From IMG/VR virus record IMGVR_UViG_3300032157_000041, positions 1 through 27,156 of that record: 27,156 bases of DNA; one strand, 5' to 3'. Position 1 is the first letter of the stretch; each line of letters begins with the position of its first letter. This stretch comes from a virus. Shown in pieces: positions 5,346 through 21,909 of this stretch. A program made the translations under genes and the position numbers. The notes under the pieces were generated by a model. It was not told where the DNA came from. It ran no database searches and was given only the letters and a program-made list of their open reading frames with translations.

Positions 5346-5367
5346 CTCAGCAATTCAGCAAGTAAGC

Positions 5368-5400
5368 GCGCCCCATCCCTAACCCGGATGGGGCGCTTTT
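5368..5400 (+). terminator. Rho-independent terminator of the structural operon
   Basis: An 11-bp perfect stem (GCGCCCCATCC at 5368-5378 with GGATGGGGCGC at 5386-5396) closes a 7-base loop and is followed directly by TTTT. It sits 22 bases after the last tail gene stop and ends rightward transcription before the attachment region. Confidence 0.9.
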
Positions 5401-5416
5401 CGCGTACCCCAAGGGG

Positions 5417-5433
5417 TGTGACCGCCGGTCACA
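5417..5433. repeat. Inverted TGTGACC/GGTCACA pair, candidate integrase arm sites (left)
   Basis: TGTGACC at 5417-5423 and GGTCACA at 5427-5433 are perfect inverted copies separated by GCC. The same 7-mer recurs twice on the other side of the tRNA-like core, which makes a protein-binding role likely, most simply integrase arm binding. Confidence 0.5.
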
Positions 5434-5541
5434 AAACGGACCTTCAGACGATCACACAGCGATCAGATGTTCGCACGACGATCACCGGGATTGCAGCGGA
5501 ACATCGGTTTTCGCCCGATCTGTCAAGGGGTCGGAACCCGG

Positions 5542-5563
5542 TTCGAATCCCGTTGGGGGTGCC
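5542..5563 (+). other. tRNA 3'-end-like segment, candidate att core
   Basis: The segment begins TTCGAAT, as in a tRNA T-loop, continues with CCCGT as the 3' half of a T stem, then TGGGGGT and G as a 3' acceptor strand with discriminator, and CC. No matching 5' half, anticodon arm or complementary 5' T-stem (ACGGG expected, CCCGG present) occurs upstream. It is therefore a fragment that would restore a host tRNA gene on integration, not a tRNA gene. The amino-acid identity cannot be told. Confidence 0.6.
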
Positions 5564-5574
5564 CCTCAAGTACG

Positions 5575-5614
5575 GCTCCTGACCTGCATCGATGCAACAG
5601 CGCAGGTCAGGGGC
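5575..5614. other. Long inverted repeat next to att core
   Basis: CCTGACCTGC (5578-5587) pairs perfectly with GCAGGTCAGG (5602-5611), extended by GCT/GGC with one wobble to about 13 bp. The loop contains part of a 10-base palindrome GCATCGATGC (5586-5595). The sequence following is pyrimidine-rich. It resembles terminators that follow actinobacterial tRNA genes, so it may supply a terminator to the tRNA after integration, or be a recombination-protein site. Confidence 0.55.
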
Positions 5615-5622
5615 TGTTCTCT

Positions 5623-5642
5623 GTGGTCACACCGTGGTCACA
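5623..5642 (+). repeat. Direct GTGGTCACA pair, candidate integrase arm sites (right)
   Basis: GTGGTCACA occurs at 5623-5631 and 5634-5642, an 11-base period of about one helical turn, only 44 bases before the integrase ATG. It shares GGTCACA with the left pair. Binding here could serve both recombination and control of integrase expression. Confidence 0.5.
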
Positions 5643-5685
5643 ACGGCAGGCGAATCTGTCAGCGCACAGGCATACGATCCCCGCC

Positions 5686-6858
5686 ATGGCCCGCCCCGAA
5701 TATCGTCCAGCCAAGGACGGCACCGACGCCTGGCGCGTCCGCTACCGGATCGGCGGCCGCCAGTCTGGTGAGACGTTCTACACCCTCGGCGCCGCCCAGG
5801 AGTTCTGCGACTGGATTCGCGTCTTCGGCACCGAGCGGGCTGTGCAGCTGCTCGCCACCGAGACAGCACATCTCCAGCCGCCGGCGGTCCTGCCGACGCT
5901 CGACGAGTGGGCCGAGAGGTACATCGACGCGCTGCCGGGTGCGTCCGGCGACACGAAGGACGGCTACCGGTCGTCCTATCGGCATTCGTTCGGCACCCGG
6001 ATCGGGATGCTGCGCCTCGACCAGGTCGACCGCGAAGCAGTGTCCCGCGCCATCGTCGACATGCAACGCGCCGGCGGACCGCGCACCAAGGGCGGCTACT
6101 CCGACAAGTCGATCGCGAACCACCACGGGCTGCTCTTCGGGATGATGGCCACCGCCGTCCTCGACCGGGTCATCACCGCGAACCCGTGCGCCGGCGTCCG
6201 CCTGCCCCGTAACAGCGACCACGAGAAGCAACCGAAGCGGTTCCTGACGCCGGCGGAGTTCCAGCGCCTGTGGTCCAAGATCGGTGCCCACCATCGGCCC
6301 CTCATCGAGACGCTCGTCGGGACTGGGATCCGGTGGGGCGAAGCCGAAGCGCTCCTGGTCTCCGACGTCGACCTGGCTGCCCGGCTCCTGCACGTGACGA
6401 AGGCCGCGAAGCGGTCCGGCGACGGCCGGCGCATCATCGGGCCAACCAAGACCCGCCGGTCACGACGGACAGTCAGTCTGCCGCTCGAGCTCGTCGAGAC
6501 CCTTGAGGCCGTCGTGCGCGGCCGCGACGATCGCGAACGCCTGTTCGTCGCCCCCCGTGGTGGCCCGCTGGGGCACAAGGTGTTCTGGCAGGACGTGTGG
6601 TTGCCGGCGTGCGCGAAGGCCAAGCTGGCTGAGCCGCGGCCGCGTATTCACGACCTGCGTCACACCTACGCTTCCTGGATGATCGCCGAGGGCGTTTCGA
6701 TGAAGGCGCTGCAGGAATCGCTCGGCCATGAGTCGATCACCACCACGATGGACCTGTACGGCCACCTGATGCCCGGGGCAATGGAGGAGACCGCCGCAGC
6801 TGCGTCTCGAGCTCTGGCGCGGGCGTTGCCCGGCCGCGGGAAAATCCGGGCGGCTTAG
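5686..6858 (+). CDS. int: Tyrosine-family phage integrase
   Basis: 390 residues from ATG 5686. The frame is open further upstream into the att region, but that part is not protein-like and runs through the att hairpin, so the internal ATG is preferred although no clear ribosome site precedes it. Residues 1-55 resemble an arm-binding domain (WRVRYRIGGRQSGETF), 70-165 the SAM-like core-binding domain (TLDEWAERYIDAL), and 185-375 the catalytic domain. Catalytic residues are visible: R216 (GTGIRWGEAEAL), K255, H322 and R325 (HDLRHTYAS), H348 (LGHES) and nucleophile Y358 (MDLYGHL). It would integrate the phage at a tRNA-type site and excise it with the excisionase. It ends in a 4-base convergent overlap with the DUF3263 gene. 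Confidence 0.95.
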   Translation: MARPEYRPAKDGTDAWRVRYRIGGRQSGETFYTLGAAQEFCDWIRVFGTERAVQLLATETAHLQPPAVLPTLDEWAERYIDALPGASGDTKDGYRSSYRHSFGTRIGMLRLDQVDREAVSRAIVDMQRAGGPRTKGGYSDKSIANHHGLLFGMMATAVLDRVITANPCAGVRLPRNSDHEKQPKRFLTPAEFQRLWSKIGAHHRPLIETLVGTGIRWGEAEALLVSDVDLAARLLHVTKAAKRSGDGRRIIGPTKTRRSRRTVSLPLELVETLEAVVRGRDDRERLFVAPRGGPLGHKVFWQDVWLPACAKAKLAEPRPRIHDLRHTYASWMIAEGVSMKALQESLGHESITTTMDLYGHLMPGAMEETAAAASRALARALPGRGKIRAA

Positions 6859-7097
6859 GCCTGGCGCAAGGTCCGCGAGCGTTTACGTTCGGCCCGGATC
6901 CTGCGCAGTCGCTTGACCGTCAGCGGGTCGTGGGCGAGGGCGGCCTCGCTGTCGATCAGTCGGTTGAGCAGCTGGGTGTAACGGACCATCGAGATGTCGA
7001 GACGTGCCCGCACTGTCGCTTCTTTGGTACCTGGGTACTGCCACCACTGGCGCTCGATCGCGAGGATCTCGCGCGCGGTGTCGGTCAACTTCTGCAT
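6855..7097 (-). CDS. DUF3263 family protein
   Basis: 80 residues on the minus strand. The pattern IERQWWQYPGTKEATVRARL, then S-x2-RYTQLLNRLID, then ALAHDPLTVKRLRRIRAER matches DUF3263, a small helical family mostly seen in actinobacteria and their phages. The basic C-terminus suggests nucleic-acid contact. It is the last gene of a leftward cassette and its stop overlaps the integrase stop tail to tail. Its phage role is unknown; transcription through it runs against integrase transcription, which could lower integrase expression in the lysogen (inference). Confidence 0.8.
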   Translation of the reverse strand: MQKLTDTAREILAIERQWWQYPGTKEATVRARLDISMVRYTQLLNRLIDSEAALAHDPLTVKRLRRIRAERKRSRTLRQA

Positions 7098-15366: not shown

Positions 15367-15806
15367 CGTCCCTTGCGTTCCGGGTCTACGGCATACCTGC
15401 CGCGCAGGGCTCCAAACGCCACGTCGGCAACGGCGTCATGATCGAGTCCTCCAAGAAGGTCAAGCCCTGGCGCCAAGACGTCGTCGCCGCCGCCATCGAG
15501 GCCATCGACCGGTTCGGGGTCCAGCAGTTCATGGGCCCGGTCAAGGTGCACATCACGTTCTTCTTCCCTCGACCGAAGGGCCACTACCGCACGGGCAAGT
15601 TCGCGCACGAGCTCAAGCCGTCCGCACCAGTGTTCGTGGCCACGAAGCCCGATGTCGATAAGACCGTCAGGTCGACTCTCGATGCTCTCGGCACGGCTGG
15701 CGTCTATCGCGACGACTCGCTCGTGGTCTCTCTGGCCGCGTCGAAGGTCTACGACTCCAATCCGGGCGCCCAGATCGCCATCTACCCGGCCCAGGAGACC
15801 GAATGA
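15363..15806 (+). CDS. rusA: RusA-type Holliday junction resolvase
   Basis: 147 residues. The N-terminus VYGIPAAQGSKRHV is typical of RusA proteins, the middle has VHITFFFPRPKGHY, and the active-site region PDVDKTVRSTLDAL (D97, D99, K100, D107) is followed by GVYRDDSLVV (D117, D118), which together give the conserved acidic cluster. RusA dimers cut four-way junctions; with the upstream exonuclease and RecT this completes a phage recombination set that resolves branched DNA before packaging. Confidence 0.9.
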   Translation: MTSLAFRVYGIPAAQGSKRHVGNGVMIESSKKVKPWRQDVVAAAIEAIDRFGVQQFMGPVKVHITFFFPRPKGHYRTGKFAHELKPSAPVFVATKPDVDKTVRSTLDALGTAGVYRDDSLVVSLAASKVYDSNPGAQIAIYPAQETE

Positions 15807-16549
15807 ATCAGCCACGCCAGTCCGCCGCCATGATCCCCATCGACCGCCTCACCCCCCACCCCGCCAACGTCCGCGAAGAACTCGGCGACCTCACAGACCT
15901 CGCCGCGTCCATCGAAGCCAACGGCATCGTCCAACCCATCGTCGTCACCGAACACCCCACCAAGGACGACCACTTCCTGATCCTCGCCGGCCACCGCCGC
16001 TACGAAGCCGCATTCCAACTCGGCCTGCCCCGCGTGCCCGTCGTGATCCGGCACGGCGACCAAGAAACCCTCGACCAGGTAGTGCTGATGCTCGTCGAGA
16101 ACATGCAGCGCTCCGACCTCAACCCTGTCGAGAAGGCTGAAGCCCTCGGCCACCTCAAGAACCGCGGCATGACCCAGCGTGAGATCGCCCGCCAGGTCGG
16201 CATCTCCGACTCGAACGTCTCCTACTACCTGCAGCTCCTCGACCTCGACGACGACTCCCTAGAGCGTCTCCGTCGCGGCCAAGCCCGGATGGGTGATGCC
16301 ATCGACATGGTCGTTCACCGCCGCAAGATGGATCGAGCCGAGAACGGCCAGGCCGAGCGCGGCCGCCCCGTCCAGGTCGAAGCCCCTTGGCTGTCTCTGG
16401 CGCATCCGCTCGCCGAGAAGGTCAAAGCCGAGTGCACCCACACGACCAGACCCAAGGTCGGCCGCGTCGGATGCGGCCAATGCTTCGAATCTGCGATCCG
16501 CGAAGACGAACGCCGGCGCCAGCGCATCGACCAAGGAGTGCCACGATGA
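15803..16549 (+). CDS. ParB/Spo0J-like nuclease-fold and HTH protein
   Basis: 248 residues from ATG 15803. ParB hallmarks: IPIDRLTPHPANVRE at the start, LAGHRRYEAA (GHRR 63-66), ENMQRSDLNPVEKA (99-112), then an HTH (MTQREIARQVGISDSNVSYY, about 123-142). The C-terminus differs from chromosomal ParB: a Cys/His cluster (C211, H213, C224, C227) replaces the usual dimerisation domain. GHRR is the CTP-binding box in ParB clamps. No parA is present, so plasmid-style partition is unlikely; transcription control or DNA loading is more plausible. Confidence 0.8.
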   Translation: MNQPRQSAAMIPIDRLTPHPANVREELGDLTDLAASIEANGIVQPIVVTEHPTKDDHFLILAGHRRYEAAFQLGLPRVPVVIRHGDQETLDQVVLMLVENMQRSDLNPVEKAEALGHLKNRGMTQREIARQVGISDSNVSYYLQLLDLDDDSLERLRRGQARMGDAIDMVVHRRKMDRAENGQAERGRPVQVEAPWLSLAHPLAEKVKAECTHTTRPKVGRVGCGQCFESAIREDERRRQRIDQGVPR

Positions 16550-16851
16550 CCGCGCTGACCAGCATCTGTGACCAGGTGGGCATCACCTACAGGCAAGCCG
16601 ACTACTGGATCCGCCAGGGCTACGTCTCAGTCGACACCGGGTGGGAAGGACCGGGCAACCGCCGCGACATCACCCCTGACGAGGCCGCGCACTTCGACGC
16701 CATGGCCCAACTCGTCGCCCACGGCATAGCCCCCGAAGTCGCAGCCCGACACACCGACCGGCTCATCGCCCAAGGATTCCGCCGCGGCGACAAGATCACC
16801 GTCGACGTCGCCTACCGCCGCGCGGCTGACGCGCTCGAGGTGGCCTCATGA
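16546..16851 (+). CDS. MerR-like HTH DNA-binding protein
   Basis: 101 residues; ATG 16546 overlaps the ParB-like stop. Residues 3-45 form a MerR-type winged helix (ICDQVGITYRQADYWIRQGY, then GPGNRRDITPDEAAHF). A helical C-terminal half follows (MAQLVAHGIAPEVAARHTDR). Such phage proteins act as local transcription regulators or excision factors. It precedes and overlaps a WhiB gene, so a linked regulatory role is likely. No effector domain is evident. Confidence 0.75.
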   Translation: MTALTSICDQVGITYRQADYWIRQGYVSVDTGWEGPGNRRDITPDEAAHFDAMAQLVAHGIAPEVAARHTDRLIAQGFRRGDKITVDVAYRRAADALEVAS

Positions 16852-17105
16852 CCGCCGCCGACCACATCGAGGACTGGCTCACCCCACCCGAATGGCACAA
16901 CCAGGCCGCCTGCACCTTCATCGGTGGCGACGAATGGTTCCCCGAAAAAGGAGGAACCACCCGCGAAGCCAAGAAAGTCTGCGCCACCTGCCCCGTCCAG
17001 AACGAGTGCCTGCAGTACGCCCTCGACCACGACGAACGCTATGGCGTCTGGGGCGGACTCTCCGAACGCGACCGCCGCAAGCTCCAAAGAAGTGCCGCCC
17101 GATGA
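16848..17105 (+). CDS. WhiB-family iron-sulfur regulator
   Basis: 85 residues. The four cluster-binding cysteines are C22, C45, C48 and C54 (CATCPVQNEC), and the GVWGG turn is at 66-70, followed by a basic helix RDRRKLQRSAAR. This is the complete Wbl layout, nearly restricted to actinobacteria and their phages. Wbl proteins bind sigma factor region 4 and change promoter choice; the phage protein TM4 WhiB acts against host WhiB2. This copy probably adjusts host or phage transcription. It overlaps both neighbouring genes by 4 bases. Confidence 0.93.
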   Translation: MTAADHIEDWLTPPEWHNQAACTFIGGDEWFPEKGGTTREAKKVCATCPVQNECLQYALDHDERYGVWGGLSERDRRKLQRSAAR

Positions 17106-17564: not shown

Positions 17565-18089
17565 ATGTCCGCAACCACCGCCAAGGTCGCCGCACGATCC
17601 AAGACCGACAACACCGGCATCACACCCGAGCTCTCGACCAAGATGTACAAGAACCTCGGATCGAACTACATGGCCATCGTCGAACTCCGCGTCGCCGAAC
17701 GCATCGAAGGCGACGACCAGTCCCACGCCGTCAAGCTCGAGGTCAACCGCATCGAACCCGCGGCCGACAAGGACATCGAGGACCACATGCGTGCCCTCGA
17801 ACGCGCCCTGTACTTCAAGCGGAACCCGCAACCGACCCTGACCCAGAAGGACCCCCTCGAGGCCAACGTCACCAAGGTGATGGACAAGACCGGCCAGACC
17901 GTCCTGAACTGCGCGCTGTGCGAACACAAGTACGCCGACACGAAGATCTCGCACGCCCGCGGCGCCGGCCCCGAATGGCCGCCGTGCGTCTGGTCCTCAT
18001 GCGGGCACGTCGTCGACTTCACCGAGCCCAAGGTCTGCACCAAGTCCCACACGCCGGTCGACGACGACGAGAAGGCGAAGAAGTCATGA
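17565..18089 (+). CDS. Hypothetical actinophage protein with C-terminal Cys cluster
   Basis: 174 residues from ATG 17565, with GGAAGGAA about 12 bases upstream inside the previous gene. Residues 35-90 alternate strands and helices (MAIVELRVAERIEGDDQSHA, IEDHMRALERALYFKRN). C116, C119, C141, C146 and C158 in the last third suggest a metal site. The tail is acidic then Lys-rich. No function recognised. Its stop overlaps the second ParB-like gene, so the two may be linked. Confidence 0.65.
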   Translation: MSATTAKVAARSKTDNTGITPELSTKMYKNLGSNYMAIVELRVAERIEGDDQSHAVKLEVNRIEPAADKDIEDHMRALERALYFKRNPQPTLTQKDPLEANVTKVMDKTGQTVLNCALCEHKYADTKISHARGAGPEWPPCVWSSCGHVVDFTEPKVCTKSHTPVDDDEKAKKS

Positions 18090-19438
18090 GCACCCTTACC
18101 ACCGTCGACGTCAAGCTGATCGACGCTCATCCTGACAACGTCCGCCGTGACGCAACCCCCGACCCTGAGTTGATTGCCTCAGTCAAGGCCCAGGGGATCC
18201 TGCAGCCGATCGGCGTCATCGAGACCACCTATCCGAAAAGGAACGGCAGCCGGGCGACGCTCGGCTACCTCCTCATCGCCGGCCATCGTCGTCTCGCGGC
18301 CGCGAAGAAGGCCGGGCTGGCCGAGATCCCGGTCATCGTCTACGACCACCTCCTGACGCGCGCCCAGCAGATCGAGGCGATGCTCGTCGAGAACGGCCGC
18401 CGCGCCGACCTGTCCGCGGTCGAGGAGGCAGCCGCCTACGAGCAACTGACCCTCGAGGGCGTCACGCCGGCGGCAATCGCCAAGGCCACCGGCAGGTCCC
18501 CAGCCACAGTCAAGGCCCGACTCAAGCTGACCAGGCTGCCCGCGGCCGCCACCGAAGCGCTCCACGGCCATCAGATGACCCTGGCCACCGCCGAGCACAT
18601 CCTCGAGTTCGCCGACTATCCGCAGCTGCTCGAGGAAGCCGAAAAGTTCCTCGCCGACGGCAAGCTCGACGAGTACGAAGCCCGACGCCTGGCCAAGCGG
18701 ATCAACGTCATCAACGAACACCGGGCACTGCGCGCCAAGTACGAGAAGTCGGGCCTCCCTGTCGTCGACACGATGCCCCAGCACGGCTGGTACGCGTCCA
18801 AGGAATGGAACCGGGTCAACAGCGAGAATCCGAAGCAGGCAGCGGCGTACTACCCCGGTGATGACGCCGGCTGGTGGAACTCCGAGCCGGTCCTCCTCAA
18901 CCCCCTCAAGGGTGGTGCCGATGAGACACCCGAGCAGGTCGCCAAACGCAAGGAACGCGAGAAGCTGGAACGGGCCAAGTTCAAGGCCGACCAGGAGGCC
19001 CTCGAGCTGCGGCACCAAATGCGCCTCGAGCACGTCGTCGAGCTCGGCCGCGGACTGAAGGTCGACTCACCACTCCTCGCGCACCTGCGGGTCGCAACCG
19101 GCAAACTCATCAACAGCTACGGCCCCGCCGTCATCGAGCGGATCACCAAAGCCGCCGGCGTCGACGACCTCGTCATCCGCGAGAAGAACGACTACGCCGG
19201 TGAGGCGCTCGCCGAAGCTGTCCGGGCCAACCTGAGCGATACCCAGGTCATGCAACTGCTGCTGGCCTGCCTCGCGCAGACCGCAGACAACGGCTACACC
19301 AACACCAGGCACCGAGCCGACGAACGCGCCGACGCCAACGAAGCAGCGTTCTGGCACGCCTTCATCGACTCCGGTTACGACCTGCCCACCGAAGACCAGA
19401 AACAGGCCGACAAAACCATCAGCAAAACCCCGGAGTGA
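18086..19438 (+). CDS. Large ParB-like protein
   Basis: 450 residues; ATG 18086 is chosen for the ATGA overlap, since the longer frame is shadow. The ParB core is residues 5-160: VKLIDAHPDNVRRDATPDPE, LIAGHRRLAAAKKAG (GHRR 66-69), VENGRRADLSAVEEA, and an HTH (VTPAAIAKATGRSPATVKAR). The remaining 290 residues are helical and Lys/Glu-rich (about 295-335, KRKEREKLERAKFKADQEAL), then a C-terminal domain ending with a DERADANEAAFWHAF helix. Size and extra domain distinguish it from the first ParB-like protein. No parA or obvious parS is seen. A role in DNA organisation, replication or transcription is possible. Confidence 0.8.
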   Translation: MSTLTTVDVKLIDAHPDNVRRDATPDPELIASVKAQGILQPIGVIETTYPKRNGSRATLGYLLIAGHRRLAAAKKAGLAEIPVIVYDHLLTRAQQIEAMLVENGRRADLSAVEEAAAYEQLTLEGVTPAAIAKATGRSPATVKARLKLTRLPAAATEALHGHQMTLATAEHILEFADYPQLLEEAEKFLADGKLDEYEARRLAKRINVINEHRALRAKYEKSGLPVVDTMPQHGWYASKEWNRVNSENPKQAAAYYPGDDAGWWNSEPVLLNPLKGGADETPEQVAKRKEREKLERAKFKADQEALELRHQMRLEHVVELGRGLKVDSPLLAHLRVATGKLINSYGPAVIERITKAAGVDDLVIREKNDYAGEALAEAVRANLSDTQVMQLLLACLAQTADNGYTNTRHRADERADANEAAFWHAFIDSGYDLPTEDQKQADKTISKTPE

Positions 19439-19443
19439 CACCC

Positions 19444-19545
19444 ATGAACCGGTGCGTCGCCACGTGTGGGTCTTTGGTCCTTTCCCCCACAGGCGCCCCC
19501 AACCGGCCTAGCCCCACCGGCGCACCACAACGGGGCACCCCATGA
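19444..19545 (+). CDS. Possible 33-residue leader peptide of the helicase gene
   Basis: ATG 19444 to TGA 19543-19545, with the stop overlapping the helicase ATG. The peptide is Pro/Thr/Gly-rich (SPTGAPNRPSPTGAPQ). The RNA can form TGTGGG (19465-19470) with CCCACA (19486-19491). Just before the helicase ATG lies GGGGCACCCC, a short palindrome that could hide the start. The overlap suggests translational coupling, but coding is not proven. Confidence 0.3.
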   Translation: MNRCVATCGSLVLSPTGAPNRPSPTGAPQRGTP

Positions 19546-21023
19546 CCTCAGACCCCGCAGAAAGCAGCCCCGTGGCCGACGACGAACAGCCGCCATACAG
19601 CGACGACGACGCCCCACCAGCCGACAACGTCCGCCCACTCACCGGACGCACCGAACCCGCGCACCTCGCAGCCGAACGCGCCCTCCTCGGCTCCCTCATC
19701 TACGACCCCGACCAATTCGACGCAGCAGCCGCCATCCTCGGCCCAGCCGACTTCGACGAACCCAAACACCAGACCATCTGGGACGCCATGACCGCCGTCG
19801 CGGACCGCGAAGGCCACCCACCTGTCCACACCCTCGTCCTCGCCGAACTCAAACGCGCCGGCCACCTCGCCAAAGTCGCATCGATCCTCCCCCAGCTGCC
19901 AGGGGACTACCCGGACCTCGCCGTCCAGTACGCCGCCATCGTCCACGAAGAAGCCGACGGCCGATTCGTCGCCAACGAGCTCCGCCACGGCCTCGCCGAA
20001 ATCACCAACCGCGGCACCGGCAACCTCGTCGACGTCTCCGGCCGCGTCATGGACGCCCTCGACCAAGCCTTCAAATTCGTCGGCCCCACAGCCGCATCCA
20101 ACATCCCCACCATCGACGAACTCCTCGCCGGCGACGAAGACCCCTACCACTGGGTCATCCCCGGCCTCATCGAACACCAAGAACGCATCATCCTCACCGC
20201 CGAACCCGGCGCCGGCAAAACCACCCTGCTGCGCCAGATCGCGCTCACCGCCGCCTCCGGCATCCACCCCTTCACCCTCGACCCCATCGAACCCATCACC
20301 GTCCTGCACGTCGACGTCGAAAACTCACGCCGCCAGAACCGGCGCCTCTACGGAGCCATGCGCACCAAAGCCGGCAAGGACCTCAAACCCGAGAACCTCC
20401 GCATCGAAATCAGGATCGAAGGCCTCGACCTCACCACCGGCGAAGACCAAGCCTGGCTCAACCACCGCGTCAAGACCGTCAAACCCGACCTCCTCCTCAT
20501 CGGCCCCATCTACAAGCTCGCCAACGGCGACCCGATCGAGGAGAAGTCCTCCAAGCCCGTCGCGATGTTCCTCGACCGTCTCCGCGCCGACCACGATTGC
20601 GCCATCATCCTCGAAGGCCACTCCGCCAAAGCCCCCGTCACCGACGCCAAGAACCGCAAACCACCCCAAGAACCCTATGGCTGGTCCGGGTGGATGCGCT
20701 GGCCCGAGATCGGCATCTGGCTCGCCAAAGAGGGCGACCTCAAACACTGGCGCGGAGCCCGCGAAGAACGCTCCTGGCCCACCCACCTCCGACGCGGCGG
20801 CCACTGGCCCTGGACCCCCGAACTCGACGGCTCCGACCAGGTCTACAAAGACGCCCGCCAAGCCCGAATCAAAGCCGGCCACCGCATCACCATCCGCGAA
20901 GTCGCCGACGCCCTCAACACCCCCACCACCAGCATCCAACGCGTCCTCGGAACCGGCTCCAGACACGCCCTCGCCTGGACCGCATTCAACGAATCCACCC
21001 TCCAAGGAGACGCCACCAAATGA
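19542..21023 (+). CDS. Replicative helicase: DnaB-N domain with RecA-type ATPase
   Basis: 493 residues. After an acidic start, residues 38-135 match the DnaB N-terminal domain (HLAAERALLGSLIYDPDQFD, FDEPKHQTIWDAM). Residues 200-400 are a RecA/RepA-type ATPase: Walker A AEPGAGKTT (220-228), then VLHVDVENSRRQNRRL, a Walker B-like PDLLLIGPIYKL (about 314-325), and EGHSAKAP. The C-terminal part has an HTH (ITIREVADALNTPTTSIQRV). It would unwind DNA at the phage origin; its position directly before the TGTTCC repeat cluster supports that. The base composition is strongly C-biased on this strand. Confidence 0.85.
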   Translation: MTSDPAESSPVADDEQPPYSDDDAPPADNVRPLTGRTEPAHLAAERALLGSLIYDPDQFDAAAAILGPADFDEPKHQTIWDAMTAVADREGHPPVHTLVLAELKRAGHLAKVASILPQLPGDYPDLAVQYAAIVHEEADGRFVANELRHGLAEITNRGTGNLVDVSGRVMDALDQAFKFVGPTAASNIPTIDELLAGDEDPYHWVIPGLIEHQERIILTAEPGAGKTTLLRQIALTAASGIHPFTLDPIEPITVLHVDVENSRRQNRRLYGAMRTKAGKDLKPENLRIEIRIEGLDLTTGEDQAWLNHRVKTVKPDLLLIGPIYKLANGDPIEEKSSKPVAMFLDRLRADHDCAIILEGHSAKAPVTDAKNRKPPQEPYGWSGWMRWPEIGIWLAKEGDLKHWRGAREERSWPTHLRRGGHWPWTPELDGSDQVYKDARQARIKAGHRITIREVADALNTPTTSIQRVLGTGSRHALAWTAFNESTLQGDATK

Positions 21024-21298
21024 CCAATTCACAAACGCACTCCTGTTCCAACACCCCCTGTGGAAAACCCCTGTTCCAGCCTGTTCCAAGCACCACCGGA
21101 ACACCCACTGACCAGCACAAACACCAAAAACCAGCCTCTGTTCCACCCACCCCCCATGGAACAGGCGAAAACCCCCACAAAACCGCAGGTCAAAGCCTGT
21201 TCCACTGTTCCGCCTCCTACGGAGGTGGTGCCGGAGCGGAACACCGCCACCTCCGCAGCAGGACACCGACACCCCAGAACGGAGGACTGAACCCATGA
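21020..21298 (+). CDS. Low-complexity frame overlying the repeat cluster
   Basis: ATG 21020 overlaps the helicase stop and TGA 21296-21298 overlaps the next ATG, so it would fit the operon as a 92-residue protein. However, composition is Pro/Thr/His/Gln-rich without hydrophobic core (STTGTPTDQHKHQKP), as expected when a frame passes through iteron DNA. It may be translated only to couple the helicase and the downstream gene. Function unknown. Confidence 0.35.
   Translation: MTNSQTHSCSNTPCGKPLFQPVPSTTGTPTDQHKHQKPASVPPTPHGTGENPHKTAGQSLFHCSASYGGGAGAEHRHLRSRTPTPQNGGLNP
21042..21243. repeat. TGTTCC iteron cluster, candidate replication origin
   Basis: Six direct TGTTCC copies start at 21044, 21072, 21082, 21139, 21198 and 21206 (five extend to TGTTCCA), and three inverted GGAACA copies start at 21098, 21158 and 21238. 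This gives nine in about 200 bases, interleaved with A-rich patches (CAAACACCAAAAACCAG near 21117-21133, CGAAAACCCCCACAAAACC near 21165-21183). The cluster sits immediately after the helicase gene, and a CCTCC-TAC-GGAGG hairpin is at 21213-21225. Directly repeated boxes, AT-richer spacers and helicase adjacency are typical of phage origins. Confidence 0.6.
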
Positions 21299-21909
21299 AC
21301 TCCCCCTCAAGCTCCGGACCCATGGAGTGCCTTCAATGCGGCAAGCCTCATCCTCGGTGCTCTGGTCACAGGAGCTCTGATCCGAGCCAGCCGTGCATGA
21401 AGTATCCGAAGAAGGACTTCACGGTGTGCCAGGCCCATGGTGGTGAGGCTCCGCAGGTGAAGGCTGCGGTCGAGCGCCGGCAGCAGGAACGCTCTGCGTT
21501 GCTGGCTCTGGAGTCGTTCGGGATCCCGGTCGTGGTGGATCCGCATACGGCGCTGCTGCAGGAGCTGCATCGCAGTGCCGGGCATGTGGAGTGGTTGGGC
21601 GCGGTCGTCGCGGATACGGAGCGCGGTGGCTTGGCGGAACGGTCTTCGGTGTCGGGACTTAATGAGCCTTCGGTGTGGGTGCGGCTGTATCAGGGCGAGC
21701 GGAAGCACTACCTGGATGTCGCGAAGGCGTGTCACGCGGCCGGCATTGAGGACCACCGCATCGAACTCGAGCAGCGGGACGCCCGGATGGTCGTTGCGAA
21801 GTTCGAACGTGCGTTGACCCGAATGCGGTTGACGGACGAACAGAAGCATGAGTTCAAGGTGATCGCTGCGGAGGAGTTCCTGGCGATCGAAGGAGGAGGA
21901 GTGGGATGA
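21295..21909 (+). CDS. Putative small terminase subunit with zinc knuckle
   Basis: 204 residues from ATG 21295. Residues 12-50 hold a Cys/His cluster (CLQCGKPHPRCSGH, then C34, and C-x2-HGGEAP around 45-52). Residues 60-200 are helical (DPHTALLQELHRSAGHVEWL, VWVRLYQGERKHYLDVAKA, MRLTDEQKHEFKVIAAEEF). This arrangement resembles actinophage proteins usually annotated as small terminase subunits. Base use switches here to G-rich on this strand, unlike the C-rich helicase. It lies more than 2.8 kb before the large subunit, unusual for a terminase pair, so the assignment is moderate. Confidence 0.5.
   Translation: MNSPSSSGPMECLQCGKPHPRCSGHRSSDPSQPCMKYPKKDFTVCQAHGGEAPQVKAAVERRQQERSALLALESFGIPVVVDPHTALLQELHRSAGHVEWLGAVVADTERGGLAERSSVSGLNEPSVWVRLYQGERKHYLDVAKACHAAGIEDHRIELEQRDARMVVAKFERALTRMRLTDEQKHEFKVIAAEEFLAIEGGGVG

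Follow-up and report, generated by a model that had tools for sequence, protein, structure and literature searches.

The segment at positions 5401–5685 of an IMG/VR virus record of 27,156 bases, analysed here in its entirety and referred to as the window, is very probably the attP by which a phage with a lambda-type tyrosine integrase inserts into the 3′ end of a tRNA-Glu gene. The phage is most likely an environmental, temperate, actinobacterial tailed phage that inserts into the end of the glutamate tRNA gene of its host. The attP itself is new and belongs to a known class, that of lambda-type tyrosine-integrase attP sites in tRNA 3′ ends. It lies in an intergenic stretch (5346–5685), with probable tail genes to its left and RecE-like and RecT-like recombination genes, ParB-like proteins and a large terminase to the right of the integrase. 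The features on which the argument draws are the following:

5368–5396, plus strand: 11-bp inverted repeat without mismatch, with a T-run behind it (repeat search and sequence), which probably terminates the genes on the left side of attP
5417–5423, minus strand: arm box 1, GGTCACA, left half of the diverging pair; kept in the relative L139
5427–5433, plus strand: arm box 2, GGTCACA, right half of the diverging pair; kept in L139
5450–5486, plus strand: three GATCA repeats (5450, 5461, 5480) in the left arm; poorly kept in L139
5520–5539, plus strand: degenerate tRNA-like left half of the core (comparison with tRNA-Glu by eye)
5540–5563, plus strand: attP core GGTTCGAATCCCGTTGGGGGTGCC, identical to the tRNA-Glu 3′ end
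5578–5611, plus strand: CCTGACCTGC...GCAGGTCAGG, a hairpin separating the core from the right arm (folded as RNA, −31.7 kcal/mol with a z-score of −4.83)
5625–5631, plus strand: arm box 3, GGTCACA; kept in L139
5636–5642, plus strand: arm box 4, GGTCACA, 11 bp past box 3; kept in L139
5686–6858, plus strand: tyrosine integrase P0001, 390 aa (PF00589, phrog_1 integrase, AlphaFold2, fold matches)
6855–7097, minus strand: DUF3263 protein, 80 aa, tail-to-tail with int (Pfam PF11662, phrog_5316)

The first-pass annotation had described four copies of one 7-mer around a tRNA-like core, inverted on the left (5417–5433) and direct on the right (5623–5642). GGTCACA is indeed present in four exact copies, the diverging left pair forming a 17-bp palindrome; the right pair and its spacing of one helical turn (11 bp from start to start) are likewise borne out, its start being at 5625 and not 5623. 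When considered by number alone, these copies are poor evidence for a site, because 7-mers occurring at least four times are common in real 285-base segments of this GC-rich window (172 of 1075, mostly coding repeats; 1.1% in shuffles of the 285-base region). The window holds seven GGTCACA in all, the other three being scattered (853, 16567 and 21364), and this total is ordinary (expected 4.84, sd 2.39; seven or more in 23 of 100 shuffles). The arrangement, in which one 7-mer forms both a direct pair 9–13 apart and a close inverted pair, was found in 6 of 3000 dinucleotide shuffles. The decisive support for the boxes is comparative, since L139 has the same boxes in the same places.

This closest relative was obtained from IMG/VR with an alignment of Nocardioidaceae relatives as the query, and its integrase is 69% identical to P0001 over 390 residues. 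Six identity runs, each of 8 nt or longer, are shared by window and L139: GGGTGTGACC and CGGTCACA, which are the left boxes; CTGTCAAG; GGTTCGAATCCCGTTGGGGGTGC, the core; CCTGACCTGC; and TGGTCACACCGTGGTCACAA, the right pair (20 nt). Outside the listed features, 97 of 200 positions (49%) agree. Thus, the restriction of the runs to features amid such a background indicates that selection has maintained the four boxes and the core. The hairpin at 5578–5611 is conserved in its left half and not in its right half. As for the GATCA repeats, they could at a guess be accessory sites for a directionality factor or for weak Int binding.

AGGTCAG or CTGACCT (window 5578–5587 and 5602–5611) recurs 24–38 bases past the T-loop core: of 38 non-redundant relatives, whose tRNA targets differ, 13 have it, where shuffles expect 0.18; on the left side the count is 4 of 38. 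The hairpin does not account for this recurrence, because L139 retains one half only.

The identity of the target rests on the 22-mer at 5542–5563, which the first-pass annotation expected at the 3′ ends of actinobacterial tRNA genes. A search of genome contigs returned at least 120 loci, with 126 occurrences among the matches listed, and 114 of these 126 places lie within tRNA genes called by ARAGORN (97 Glu-UUC, 16 Glu-CUC and one called Asp), all 114 with ACGGG directly before the 22-mer. Among the matches listed, 113 of 126 are therefore in tRNA-Glu, in genomes that are mostly Actinomycetota by title, and the 12 places outside tRNA genes are ends of contigs, a stretch containing N, incomplete copies and unrelated sites. 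Thus, the attP core, which stands beside int, matches the 3′ end of a host tRNA gene exactly. Rfam matches at the site all fell under the gathering score and were rejected. Within IMG/VR, the 22-mer was found in two other viruses; it lies directly upstream of the integrase in L002, and the contig of L003/L004 carries one copy in tRNA-Glu(CUC), the other being partial and beginning at the anticodon loop. A point against the attP reading is that the 22-mer is widespread, so that any phage with a captured tRNA-Glu end would carry a match.

Strand exchange is predicted to occur in or beside the T-loop sequence TTCGAAT (5542–5548), because of the outcome of in silico joins of eight host tRNA-Glu 5′ parts with the phage halves of the window and L139 (16 combinations). 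Joins at the T-loop were called tRNA-Glu in 8/8 cases for the window and 8/8 for L139, so that integration rebuilds the tRNA in silico in 16/16 cases, as against 2/8 and 0/8 (2/16) for joins at the anticodon loop. An attP with exchange in the anticodon loop (CTGTCAAG against CTYTCAAG), the tRNA 3′ half being carried along, is a rather unlikely alternative. The stretch at 5520–5539 does resemble tRNA-Glu from anticodon loop to T-stem, and this residual similarity begins at CTGTCAAG in both the window and L139, whose conservation covers these first eight bases; moreover, the L003/L004 contig duplicates tRNA-Glu from the anticodon loop onward, and that loop is described as a common place of exchange for mycobacteriophages in PMC10865867. 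However, only 6 bases match there, compared with 24 at the T-loop, uninterrupted identity with tRNA-Glu starts at 5540 rather than in the anticodon loop, and ARAGORN found no complete tRNA, hence no compensating gene, in the window, a record that may be incomplete. That CTGTCAAG (5520–5527) is anticodon-loop-like and kept in L139 counts against exchange at the T-loop, which assigns it no role; CTGTCAAG may be what is left of a formerly longer core.

Integration with exchange at the T-loop would proceed as follows. The N-terminal β-sheet domain of P0001 would bind the four GGTCACA boxes, and its core-binding and catalytic domains would bind and cut the core. The diverging left and direct right pairs would allow integrase bound to arm and core to bridge bent DNA. 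Upon exchange in or next to TTCGAAT, the phage-borne tRNA 3′ end would replace that of the host, and a working tRNA-Glu would be rebuilt at attL, directly upstream of the hairpin, which would then follow immediately behind the tRNA, and of int.

The properties of P0001 are consistent with this role. Its gene starts at 5686, 122 bases past the core, and the protein matches PF00589 with an E-value of 1.7e-24. The AlphaFold2 model (pLDDT 90.5) matches the folds of Tn1549 Int and lambda Int, with predicted N-terminal arm-binding, core-binding and catalytic domains; it aligns with full-length lambda Int (1z1b), likewise a two-site integrase, over 370 columns. The predicted N-domain comprises strands 4–8, 14–22 and 25–31 and helix 34–47, and the model points to a separate N-terminal arm-binding domain. 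Judging by the alignment, the catalytic set R, K, H, R, H, Y of tyrosine recombinases is present: R216, H322, R325, H348 and Y358 are invariant and K242 nearly invariant in 40 aligned relatives, the lysine being K242 or K255. The lambda attP differs from the window in that its target is not a tRNA, and in its arm and helper sites.

The layout of inverted left and direct right boxes recurs in L139, L002, the attP of Nocardioides sp. R-C-SC26 and many relatives. Taking the T-loop as zero, the boxes stand at −125/−115 and +83/+94 in the window, at −102/−94 and +82/+93 in L002, and at −102/−93 and +81/+92 in R-C-SC26; in the latter two, the diverging pair thus falls at −102 to −93, and the direct pair, with its 11-bp spacing, at +81 to +93. 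A survey of direct repeats of at least 6 bases in the 130 bases before int, covering 86 integrases less than 85% identical, gave spacing peaks at 11 (22 cases), 12 (16) and 21 (11), with 0 to 5 cases for each spacing outside 10–13 and 21. In 26 loci there was a right pair and the sequence reached far enough upstream; a diverging left pair of the same box was found in 15 (14 loci and the window), compared with 0 converging, 2 direct plus-strand and 1 direct minus-strand arrangements; when boxes of other loci were used as control, the rates were 5.2%, 0.6%, 1.5% and 1.4%, respectively. At that place, an intact tRNA is present in five of the 26 loci (attL, where a left arm is not expected), none of which has a diverging pair. 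One of the 14, the CCGCCCC pair of L179, looks like a GC-rich chance match.

The same is seen in 14 named phages (12 fetched, plus MooMoo and Donkeykong), where four boxes with at most 2 mismatches occur in 10 of 14, as against 1 of 280 shuffles; four boxes were not shown for Mcklovin, Footloose, Getalong and Spartoi. Arthrobacter phages Persistence and Seahorse had been considered as further cases of attP upstream of int and were rejected, since a gene overlaps the int start and no attP lies upstream. The layout is a trait of the integrase family, recurring across different phages and tRNA sites. Neither a family-wide layout nor a residue-to-base rule was found in open-licence papers, where paired arm sites of mycobacteriophages appear.

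The box sequence itself varies among relatives. The right pair fits G-N3-ACA in 40 of the 86 integrases, the other 46 being outside the comparison that follows, in which the fourth base of the box is set against residue 19 (P0001 numbering). Arginine goes with C in six cases and G in two; glutamine with T in seven and A in one; serine, asparagine and alanine together with A in six; lysine with A in nine, always as GGGA; leucine with G in four and A in two; valine and tyrosine with A, and methionine with G. Joint switches of residue and base are seen between closely related integrases: L191 and L165 (S, N; GCCAACA) versus L192 (Q; GCCTACA) at 77–79% core identity, L180 (R; GTGGACA) versus L155 and L182 (L; GTTGAC) at 80–83%, and L179 (R; GGCC) versus L183, L205 and L212 (K; GGGA) at 67–73%. 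Simulations on an integrase tree, which is assumed, reached the association in 0 of 1000 cases, both in the 40-row test and in the 37-row test, from which the three doubtful boxes (L164, L168, L206) were dropped. With one integrase per 60% cluster the association is significant (0 of 300 shuffles), and with one per 50% cluster or per 40% cluster (5 clusters) it is not, the value being reached in 12.7% and 47.7% of shuffles. Named phages that fit the rule are Angelica (L, ATCAAC), Anaya, Validus and Mufasa (R, NTCCAC), and MooMoo and Donkeykong (S, GACA); Nymphadora (R, GGGA/GGGT) goes against it, and for Squirty, Wee and Phrappuccino the boxes allow no register.

That residue 19 tracks the variable box bases suggests an arm-recognition code. 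Residues 17, 19 and 21 of P0001 alternate along strand 14–22 and therefore should share one face in the model, and residues 17 and 19 were already singled out in the comparison of CrimD with Anaya in PMC3203893, where the question of arm-site choice was raised for one phage group. The chances seem to us about even that there is a common attP grammar (diverging on the left; direct on the right, at one or two turns; G-N3-ACA) with variable bases read by the second β-strand of the N-domain, chiefly residue 19 (arginine for C, glutamine for T, small residues for A), such that arm specificity is predictable. Whole N-domain swaps between integrases would yield the same association without residue 19 acting as the reader.

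These data also bear on whether the GGTCACA boxes might instead be operators of another DNA-binding protein, such as a repressor or an excisionase. A 17-bp palindrome would suit a dimer, and according to PMC7498355, recombination directionality factors work on directly repeated sites spaced by one helical turn; such a function is nonetheless very unlikely, given that one word is used in both layouts and on both sides of the core, that the box sequence tracks N-domain residues of the integrase among relatives, and that the layout goes with the integrase family even where phage and tRNA site differ. A guess at the excisionase or recombination directionality factor would be the DUF3263 protein: tblastn gave 19 rows (two being the same place) in loci L125–L373 together with L002, L003, L004, L050 and L090, and several homologues come right after int or adjoin the left arm.

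Prophage evidence comes from Nocardioides sp. R-C-SC26, where two copies of the 22-mer (131722–131743 and 182005–182026) lie 50.3 kb apart on one contig. The copy at 182005–182026 belongs to an intact tRNA-Glu, behind which an integrase stands, and that at 131722–131743 is partial, with identity from the T-loop onward only; searches with 10 ORFs between them identified a large terminase, portal, head protease and minor tail proteins. A prophage bounded by the core, as the first-pass annotation anticipated, is thus present; its integrase belongs to another branch and shares 56% identity with the integrase of L002, which in turn is 28% identical to P0001. The rejoined attP of this prophage has the same four-box layout with a different box, GTCAACA.

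Neither the host of this phage nor a prophage of it, of L139 or of the closest relatives was found in IMG/VR or the genome contigs. Relatives were obtained by alignment queries, single-sequence peptide patterns being insufficient: P0001 patterns alone gave no relative in IMG/VR, and 18 stretches but no confirmed relative in genome contigs. INPHARED blastn with 5350–5700 gave no match. Integrase searches were positive in 4 of 245 Nocardioidaceae genomes at E 1e-60, the relatives standing just behind tRNA genes in L125, L131, L132 and L133 and not in L134, and the search in Acidimicrobiia was empty (0 of 296 genomes at E 1e-50). That the core is a relic, the phage being lytic or using another site and the repeats being due to chance, would agree with the lack of a lysogen and with the ordinary 7-mer count, and is scarcely credible in view of the rarity of the layout in shuffles, its retention with the core in L139 and an integrase intact in its catalytic residues.

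Among known systems, the attP sites of cluster K1 mycobacteriophages (CrimD, Angelica, Anaya), as described in PMC3203893, resemble the window: the core measures about 24 bp and corresponds to the T-loop end of a tRNA-like gene, arm sites are paired to its left and right, and int follows immediately downstream. CrimD also has a stem-loop between core and right arm, and the window shares the T-loop core and a terminator-like hairpin before the right pair. In contrast, the cluster K1 target is tmRNA instead of tRNA-Glu, its box is ATCAAC or ATCCAC instead of GGTCACA, and Angelica and Anaya have three left boxes (two minus-strand 11 bp apart and one plus-strand), whereas the window has one on each strand. 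In these two phages (L358, L359; 341–375), the third, plus-strand box forms a diverging pair with the inner minus-strand box; the left-side sites named in the attP description of PMC3203893 are P1 and P2 only.

The mycobacteriophages MooMoo and Donkeykong share with the window the diverging left pair, a direct right pair (12 bp) and a T-loop-like core upstream of int, and their integrase is 38% identical to P0001, but their core ends in a different tRNA sequence (GGGGTTCGAATCCCCTTAGCTCCAC), and their box, GACAACA/GACAGCA, has mismatches between copies where those of GGTCACA are exact. In cluster J (Omega, BAKA) and in L5/Giles, paired arm sites also flank the core, and the cluster J target is also a tRNA; unlike the diverging left pair of the window, however, the arm pairs are direct in orientation, and the left end of attB in cluster J is in the anticodon loop, following the account of these sites in PMC3706429. 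Compared with this anticodon-loop class of tRNA attP (cluster J, Boilgate), the core identity of the window starts later, at 5540.

The site would provide a new tRNA-Glu integration module for little-studied actinobacteria, useful for integration vectors. Since box and integrase N-domain co-vary in dozens of phages, arm-site choice by two-site integrases may become predictable and testable.

Elsewhere in the window, ORF 19466–21298 has no PHROG match, and CTGTTCC/TGGAACA occurs up to seven times per 285 bases at 20876–21400, in or overlapping this ORF. A WhiB-type transcription factor is encoded at 16848–17105, and two different ParB-like proteins are found in this one phage record, at 15803–16549 and 17918–19438.
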